Assembly (NCBI GenBank): GCA_028690155.1
Contig: JAQVBU010000019.1
Coordinates: 1 to 35,114, forward strand
Reading direction: 5' to 3'
From: Alphaproteobacteria bacterium
GTDB lineage: Bacteria > Pseudomonadota > Alphaproteobacteria > UBA9219
DNA length: 35,114 nt
A program made the translations under genes and the position numbers. The notes under the pieces are model-generated. The model made no database searches and had not been told where the DNA came from. It worked only from the letters and a program-made list of their open reading frames with translations. Below are positions 34,606 to 35,114 of the stretch, in pieces; positions within the stretch are counted from its first letter, which is position 1, and every line of letters starts with the position of its first letter.

Positions 34606-34910
34606 ATGAATGGCGCTGGATTCTTTATATTTTTTGTACGCGAGGTATGAGAGCCCCTAATTTCGGCGCTGATTCTTTCACTTGTTGCCGAGAAAGTCAC
34701 CATACAAAGGTCCCATTAACAGGGTCTTAACGCCATTAACGAGAAGTTTTGCCGCTTTTTTATGTTTTTTTCTTCTGAACTCAATAAGTTGATTGACTTT
34801 CAACGTTTGAGGCGTCAAAACAACGCGACTTCTTGGAACAAGAGGCTCTTGAGGCCTTTTTTCGTGAAGTATTGGGCTAGTTAGTCTAAATTTGAATAAT
34901 AGCCATTGAA
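34606..34910. other. Intergenic region upstream of cckA
   Basis: No gene is seen. It contains the CtrA-type box (34716-34739). A TTGACT element (34792-34797) has no clear -10 partner. CAAGAG-G-CTCTTG (around 34840) followed by GAGGCCTTTTTT could be a weak terminator. Confidence 0.5.
34716..34739 (-). promoter_or_regulatory. CtrA-type binding site upstream of cckA
   Basis: TTAA-N7-TTAA (34716-34730) is a full match to the CtrA core spacing. A third TTAA follows five bases later (34736-34739). The site lies 111-134 bp upstream of cckA. Feedback of CtrA on its own kinase is inferred. Confidence 0.6.
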
Positions 34911-35114
34911 GATCGCGGGGTGGAGCAGCCCGCCCTAGCCTTTGCGAAGCAAGGGCATAAAGATGAAGCTACCGGGCTCCAGAACGCCGGTAGCTATTAA
35001 AGATCGCGGGGTGGAGCAGCCCGCCCTAGCCTTTGCGAAGCAAGGGCATAAAGATGAAGCTACCGGGCTCCAGAACGCCGGTAGCTATTAAAGATCGCGG
35101 GGTGGAGCAGCCCG
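34911..35114 (+). repeat. 91-bp perfect tandem repeats carrying initiator-tRNA 5' end
   Basis: Two identical 91-bp units (34911-35001 and 35002-35092) are followed by the first 22 bases of a third. Each unit begins GAT and then CGCGGGGTGGAGCAGCCCG, the first 19 nt of bacterial initiator tRNA-fMet. The remainder departs from tRNA: GCCCT...AGGGC forms a hairpin, GGAGCAGCCCG pairs with CGGGCTCC around it, and AGCTACCGG pairs with CCGGTAGCT. A diverged form of the flank (AGCCATTGAAGAT against AGCTATTAAAGAT) precedes the first copy. Confidence 0.9.
35096..35114 (+). tRNA. Possible start of tRNA-fMet (cut by window end)
   Basis: The last 19 bases match the 5' end of initiator tRNA, including the C1 that gives the unpaired 1-72 position. 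The same 19 bases start both preceding repeat units, which are not tRNAs. The window ends exactly where tRNA and repeat would diverge, so a true tRNA and a third repeat copy cannot be told apart. Confidence 0.35.

Follow-up and report, generated by a model that had tools for sequence, protein, structure and literature searches.

The end of one contig of a draft alphaproteobacterial genome of the order UBA9219 carries a tandem array of units built on the 5' end of the initiator tRNA, and related units lie directly ahead of tRNA-fMet, and of several other tRNAs, in members of the same order. The anatomy of these units is certain, while their function is not. With a confidence somewhat short of even, we read the array from its sequence as a co-transcribed tRNA-leader cassette that would act at the RNA level.

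Tandem units at the contig end

The window, by which we mean the whole stretch of 35,114 nucleotides that was analysed, is the complete contig 31 of a 2.1-Mb draft genome in 43 contigs (here G000). The presence of the repeat array was confirmed: TRF reports a single array in the window (34900-35114, period 91, 2.4 copies), positions 34909-34999 recur without differences at 35000-35090, and the 19-mer CGCGGGGTGGAGCAGCCCG, which equals nucleotides 1-19 of tRNA-fMet in relatives, starts at 34914, 35005 and 35096, its sole occurrences on the two strands of the window. Folding of the unit is stronger than that of dinucleotide shuffles both as RNA (z -3.42, 2 of 200 as good) and as DNA (z -3.90, 0 of 200), and these folds together with the exact repeat positions rule out a chance origin. 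The following features, all on the plus strand, were assigned:

34793..34827, +, promoter-like stretch, TTGACT ... TCAAAACAACGCG, of the probable fMet locus (alignment with relatives)
34904..34913, +, leader ahead of unit 1, CATTGAAGAT, resembling the in-array spacer ATTAAAGAT (sequence)
34914..35004, +, unit 1, 91 bp (TRF, sequence positions)
34914..34932, +, copy of tRNA-fMet nucleotides 1-19 in unit 1 (tRNA of relatives, positions)
34915-34919 with 34929-34933, +, HP0 of unit 1, in which GCGGG can pair with CCCGC (the DNA fold also closes this region)
34938..34956, +, hairpin H1 of unit 1, 8-bp stem (6 of 300 shuffles as long)
34957..34966, +, A-rich linker of unit 1 (sequence)
34967..34995, +, hairpin H2 of unit 1 (fold, comparison with relatives)
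34967-34979, +, 5' arm of H2, AGCTACCGGGCTC, containing GCTACCGGGC, the reverse complement of fMet D-arm nucleotides 15-24
35005..35095, +, unit 2, 91 bp, the same as unit 1 letter for letter (sequence positions)
35096..35114, +, 19 nt, the opening of a third unit or of tRNA-fMet itself (contig end, tRNA of relatives)

A preliminary description of this DNA, made from the sequence alone, had proposed identical 91-bp repeats that start with the 5' end of the initiator tRNA, and on both points it holds: there are two full units with no mismatch between them, and their opening 19-mer is that of tRNA-fMet in relatives. As an array of repeats it thus comprises two full units, whereas the supposed third copy is only 19 nt long and could instead open the real tRNA-fMet; unit and tRNA part ways right after the base at which the contig stops, so that these final nucleotides may belong to the tRNA gene, and we infer that the assembler halted at the fork between the two. 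The break of the tRNA copy falls within the D-loop, in agreement with the D-arm position that had been described, but the inserted part is two hairpins and a linker rather than one palindrome. GTAGCT, earlier taken for the next tRNA bases, is the 3' arm of H2; since this arm varies among genomes, it represents no constant tRNA remnant.

The missing tRNA-fMet of the assembly

No tRNA-fMet was found in this assembly with the Rfam tRNA model (45 matches), with ARAGORN (three genes with a Met anticodon, two of them identical in sequence and none starting like an initiator) or with two fMet patterns, which gave no match in the genome. TTGACT and TCAAAACAACGCG ahead of unit 1, however, align with the region upstream of fMet in four of the five congeners that have the gene and were aligned (G002, G003, G007 and G010), and likewise in the family member G013; at the fMet gene of the remaining congener, G005, no alignment was obtained. 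As the upstream stretch aligns with that of fMet and the assembly has no such gene, the fMet locus is the most likely site of the array, and the tRNA gene would lie in the assembly gap. A real initiator tRNA after the array, which the preliminary description had proposed to look for, is seen in the relatives with a like arrangement and not in this assembly; in these relatives the initiator tRNA is close by and begins with the same 19 nucleotides.

Units at initiator tRNA genes of the order and beyond

A pattern combining the start of the D-arm with the antisense motif gave 13 matches, spread over 7 of the 34 genomes searched in the order and all at fMet loci, and in the six genomes other than that of the window one to three units immediately precede an intact tRNA-fMet of like orientation. 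In a survey of fMet genes that was independent of the antisense motif (25 loci in 24 genomes of the order), units were present at seven loci, namely those of the six genomes above and a decayed one in G024, and lacking at 18. With up to two mismatches allowed, the start of a D-arm complement lies 30-44 nt ahead of the tRNA at all seven loci with units and at none of the 18 unit-free loci of the order (Fisher P 2e-6, for genomes that are related to each other). It should be noted that most fMet units had been found by patterns that include part of the antisense motif, which we count against the cassette. Units change between close relatives and between tRNAs: in a single genus, G025 has none, G029 one and G031 two behind a common upstream stretch whose promoter was read by eye, and the insertion in G029, by lengths taken from the sequence, spans 83 bp and has a direct repeat of 29 bp. 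In G001 two fMet genes, on contigs C31 and C53, are both unit-free.

Beyond the order such units are rare. A unit-plus-fMet pattern matched 1 of 385 genomes of the class, and this one, G026, is a member of the source order. A strict class pattern matched 8 of the 385, among which G000 and G026 were real and the other six looked like chance, and a covariance model run over the same genomes (best 11 candidates per genome) returned G000, G026 and one match in G403, which is without fMet and reads as a terminator. A scan of named genomes yielded five loci with true units (L167, L171, L193, L198 and L213) among 80 of at least 119 matched stretches. Among the matches listed, units precede fMet in Novosphingobium huizhouense, Rhodospirillaceae EAC36 and Robiginitomaculum S139_58; in UBA12226 they precede a tRNA start that runs into N. 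Only fMet units turned up outside the order among the matches listed for named genomes. The units of G026 come after 23S and 5S rRNA, and the Novosphingobium contig also holds tRNAs for Ile and Ala, which suggests an rRNA operon context there as well.

In three contigs of a viral collection, fMet is preceded by a whole or partial unit: L283 and L285 hold true units, and L284 starts inside one. The scans of viral contigs returned 33 stretches at first and then 2, 1, 51 and 28, with 113 loci re-examined; a phage-borne element was not supported, as all 33 stretches of the first scan read as chance by eye, and the viral-contig scans for Ser and Gly units gave none. At about 195-500 of L283 the 3' end of fMet recurs downstream of the tRNA gene, a layout that a prophage integrated at a tRNA 3' end would be expected to leave. 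By eye, the DNA just downstream of tRNA-fMet in G027 (L083) resembles the start of an integrase gene.

Anatomy of the fMet unit

From 5' to 3', a unit consists of the tRNA 5' end up to the D-loop, closing bases, a hairpin of free sequence, an A-rich linker, the D-arm complement and a leader-like spacer. Well-kept fMet units open with tRNA nucleotides 1-19 followed by C(C), or CGG in G029. The sequence of H1 is unrelated among lineages; the antisense is GCTACCGGGC or a near match to it, and the second arm of H2 drifts before the spacer follows. Upstream of the motif, over a stretch of at most 11 nt, A residues make up 59% in 16 units, compared with 26% over eight whole inserts, and ACAAA occurs in the linker of 8 of the 16. 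In Novosphingobium, EAC36, Robiginitomaculum and UBA12226 the order of parts is kept around an unrelated H1, which counts for the cassette.

The copied acceptor strand can form HP0 with the bases at the break point, with 4-8 bp in 11 examples counted without a shuffle control, and one HP0 pair of the decayed G024 unit is altered on both sides, again a point for the cassette. Against it we count that RNAalifold gave eight pairs with one two-sided change and a covariation term of +0.4 and did not recover H1, and that the H1 stems, 3-9 bp long, beat shuffles (at most 29 of 300) in only 12 of 22 units.

Units at Gly, Lys and Ser tRNA genes

The preliminary description had considered fMet alone, a scope that proved too narrow, and a function confined to fMet is weakened by related units at Gly, Lys and Ser tRNAs. 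These were found by searching for the first 16 nt of each tRNA, with up to two mismatches, within 400 nt upstream. In the source genome (44 distinct ARAGORN tRNAs, 43 with at least 150 nt upstream) four tRNAs have such a copy: Lys-CTT, with an upstream copy of its start, Gly-CCC, with four 67-bp units, Ser-GGA, with two 118-bp units, and Ser-TGA, with a 37-nt copy and a differing insert. The copy at this Ser-TGA (start of C10, L504) reaches the anticodon loop and lies 131 bp upstream, and its GC-rich insert is unlike those of other units. In G003, G014, G026 and G029 an upstream copy was found, among the matches listed, at 5 of 146 tRNAs (Gly-TCC, Ser-GCT, Ser-GGA twice and Ser-TGA); 141 of these tRNAs have at least 150 nt upstream, and the set leaves aside the fMet genes of G003, G026 and G029. 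Downstream copies of the 5' end within 400 nt were absent from all 190 tRNAs of the source genome and these four relatives among the matches listed. Copies of the tRNA 3' end within 400 nt downstream, an ordinary sight, occur at 7 of the 190.

A looser 14-nt search added the Ala-TGC of the source genome, where it had picked up the adjacent Ile tRNA, and a tRNA-Thr of G003. The latter case, at tRNA-Thr(TGT) (L486), is a 68-bp upstream segment that opens like the tRNA, continues with a TCCTCC..GGAGGA hairpin and returns to tRNA-like sequence; it may be a unit in decay or of another form. In six other alphaproteobacterial genomes, no unit was seen at 111 distinct tRNAs from the three named carriers, whose fMet units lay outside this sample, and from G042, G061 and G087, and the two matches obtained were both complete neighbouring tRNA genes; the sample is not random, as 40 of its stretches were picked, mainly for Ser, Leu, Tyr and Gly genes. 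As a separate observation, low-scoring tRNA matches in unusual sequence cluster beside the Gly and Val(AAC) tRNAs at 53843-57442 of contig C35 in G000 (L033, L049), perhaps a mobile element.

Complementarity to the own tRNA and predicted folding

Complementarity to the own tRNA is a feature of the fMet, Lys and most Ser units. For 13 of 17 hand-set inserts the best-matching D-arm among the isoacceptor families is that of their own tRNA, the exceptions being two Gly inserts, the Ser-TGA insert of the source genome and a tie for G014 Ser-GGA; the sum over all own D-arms was reached by none of 20000 label permutations, in a set in which 8 of the 17 inserts are fMet. In the match to their own D-arm, five of the nine non-fMet inserts are equalled or bettered by no more than 9 of 500 shuffles, and for G003 Ser-TGA the figure is 43 of 500. 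No D-arm complement was found in the Gly units and the Ser-TGA unit of the source genome (342-500 of 500 shuffles as good), which speaks against the cassette. In the Ser-GGA units the match lies in a hairpin loop, AACCAC in the source genome and G014 and AAGCAC in G029; all stem pairs are kept in four sequences, two of them changed on both sides, and this value is lost on sliding the partner, yet it is reached by 72 of 500 shuffles.

When the last unit was folded jointly with its own tRNA, the antisense was predicted to pair with the D-arm and the 3' acceptor strand of the tRNA with the unit. Nine of the 12 fMet cases gained 9.9-13.4 kcal/mol, which no more than 5 of 100 shuffled inserts equalled or surpassed; the gain was unremarkable for Robiginitomaculum, L283 and L285 (26-62 of 100). 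The 18 unit-free fMets gave 0 to -8.3, and several of them are also predicted to misfold. At other tRNAs the Ser-GGA of the source genome alone stands out (2 of 100), while nine of ten do not (21-79 of 100). Given three unremarkable fMet cases in 12, nine among ten other units, and controls that misfold, the energy argument is weak; a switch is best supported for fMet, where it is a matter of prediction only.

Possible function and origin

In the cassette reading, the stretch from about -10 to the tRNA D-loop is present in extra copies between promoter and tRNA-fMet, and the insert of each extra copy can close the copied acceptor strand in HP0, adds H1 and the A-rich linker and carries the D-arm complement in H2. 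The units would be transcribed together with the tRNA, and in the nascent transcript the hairpins would hold both the copy and the antisense off the tRNA. Upon opening of the hairpins, two helices could form, one between antisense and D-arm and one between the copied acceptor strand and the tRNA 3' end, which would yield a misfolded precursor; in this way the cassette would delay or tune maturation of its own tRNA in cis. The A-rich linker beside the antisense might recall the (ARN) sites bound by Hfq. The position of the units on the tRNA strand, directly ahead of the tRNA and behind a common upstream stretch, counts for the cassette, and the order of parts common to distant lineages favours a working RNA; the patchy occurrence, with most fMet loci of the order lacking units, counts against it. 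It might further be speculated, as a tentative and on balance doubtful extension, that across the order, and for fMet also in several other lineages, each such tRNA has its own antisense leader cassette, whose copied 5' part and D-arm complement would switch folding or maturation in cis or damp it in trans. 

Patchiness, direct repeats and the tracking of host sequence, on the other hand, favour a mutational by-product, and that the units arise by template switching or snap-back synthesis at tRNA genes is a serious, if still doubtful, possibility. A stalled strand ending in the D-loop would fold back on itself, synthesise sequence complementary to its acceptor strand and D-arm, and resume in the leader; tRNA leaders would tolerate the resulting hairpins, and recombination between direct repeats would add and remove copies. 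HP0 and the D-arm complement are the leftovers expected from such fold-back copying, and the direct repeat of the G029 insertion and the variation of units between close relatives and between tRNAs agree with it. So does the resemblance of spacers to the leader of the same tRNA (P 0.0008 by permutation across 10 hand-set lineages), which is strong in only four (G000, G033, the G029/G031 genus and Novosphingobium) and weak or absent in the other six. Unit positions 7-9 equal those of the own tRNA in all 10 chosen lineages, a count that takes unit 3 of G027, units 1 and 2 of which differ from the tRNA, and excludes the decayed G024, Robiginitomaculum and L283 copies. What fold-back copying leaves unexplained is H1 with the A-rich linker, in the same order in distant lineages, and, as a weak point, that the loop AACCAC is kept while its stem changes.

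We consider it unlikely that the units are a small mobile element that enters tRNA D-loops, duplicating target sequence as far as the leader. Such an element would fit the D-loop break in fMet, Lys, Gly and most Ser units, whose inserts often begin with CCC(G), the presence of CCCGCGAGCG in the Gly units of two genomes and in the Ser-GGA unit of the source genome, and the sporadic occurrence in other orders. Yet no unit was seen away from its tRNA, the order-level matches lying without exception at fMet loci, and a search of the source genome for the unit elsewhere, which the preliminary description had suggested, returned matches of 14-17 nt outside the array. Break points also differ in G026 Ser-GCT, G003 Ser-TGA and the Ser-TGA of the source genome, spacers track the host leader in several lineages, and no enzyme or longer form was found. 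The units might also mark an integration site, an idea raised in the preliminary description, or be tRNA fragments of an integrated element; 65-131 bp leave no room for a gene within a unit, larger elements with the same ends were sought by two patterns, no integrase is shown to act at the 5' end, and all order-level places lie at fMet loci. Two further roles suggested in that description, tRNA mimic and RNase P substrate, with cleavage at the copied +1, may apply. Finally, an assembly artefact is highly improbable: the array does extend to the contig end, but like arrangements lie within contigs of six other genomes of the order and of named genomes, and the four-unit Gly-CCC array of the source genome is internal to a contig.

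Should the cassette be functional, it would provide direct control of individual tRNAs, the initiator of translation among them; otherwise the units are the record of a mutational process at tRNA genes with a recognisable signature. Draft assemblies may miss such units, as here, where the contig stops within the array.

Comparison with known families and systems

Neither ARAGORN nor Rfam detected the unit as a tRNA, the only hit of both in the window being the tmRNA, which is of the alphaproteobacterial type. Rfam 15 has no family over the units of the window at gathering score, and a permissive search of 11 loci with units gave only sub-threshold matches over them, none of them credible. A dispersed repeat of the REP or MITE type was not supported, as the source genome and the order show no copies at unrelated sites. 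We found no description of such units in the literature searched, in which subscription papers were thinly covered.

In the common view, tRNA leaders are short and plain; some of the leaders described here, in contrast, are tandem copies of the 5' end of their own tRNA with an antisense to its D-arm. T-boxes, which read the anticodon and the acceptor end and control mRNAs, are similar in being leader RNAs complementary to one tRNA, but the units match the D-arm and lie ahead of a tRNA gene; a T-box leader was rejected, as there is no Rfam match and the next gene in relatives is a tRNA and not an mRNA. Spacer RNAs of tRNA precursors such as 3'ETS-leuZ act as sponges that bind small RNAs; like the units, they are non-tRNA parts of the transcript with a possible base-pairing role, whereas the units complement the tRNA itself. 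The 178-bp repeats of Escherichia coli tyrT, with the rtT RNA, are also tandem repeats beside a tRNA gene, each with a piece of that tRNA, but they repeat its 3' end, downstream of the gene. The window unit instead contains the 5' end, with its counterparts in relatives located upstream, so that it is no repeat of the tyrT type, and it differs further in the D-arm complement and in the occurrence at several tRNAs. Partial duplication of tRNAs also results from the integration of roughly 9-23 kb of foreign DNA (PMC9897764). The fragments described there resemble our units as partial tRNA copies beside or near an intact gene, and differ from them in that the units are 65-131 bp long, place a 5' fragment upstream of the tRNA and add hairpins as well as an antisense to it.
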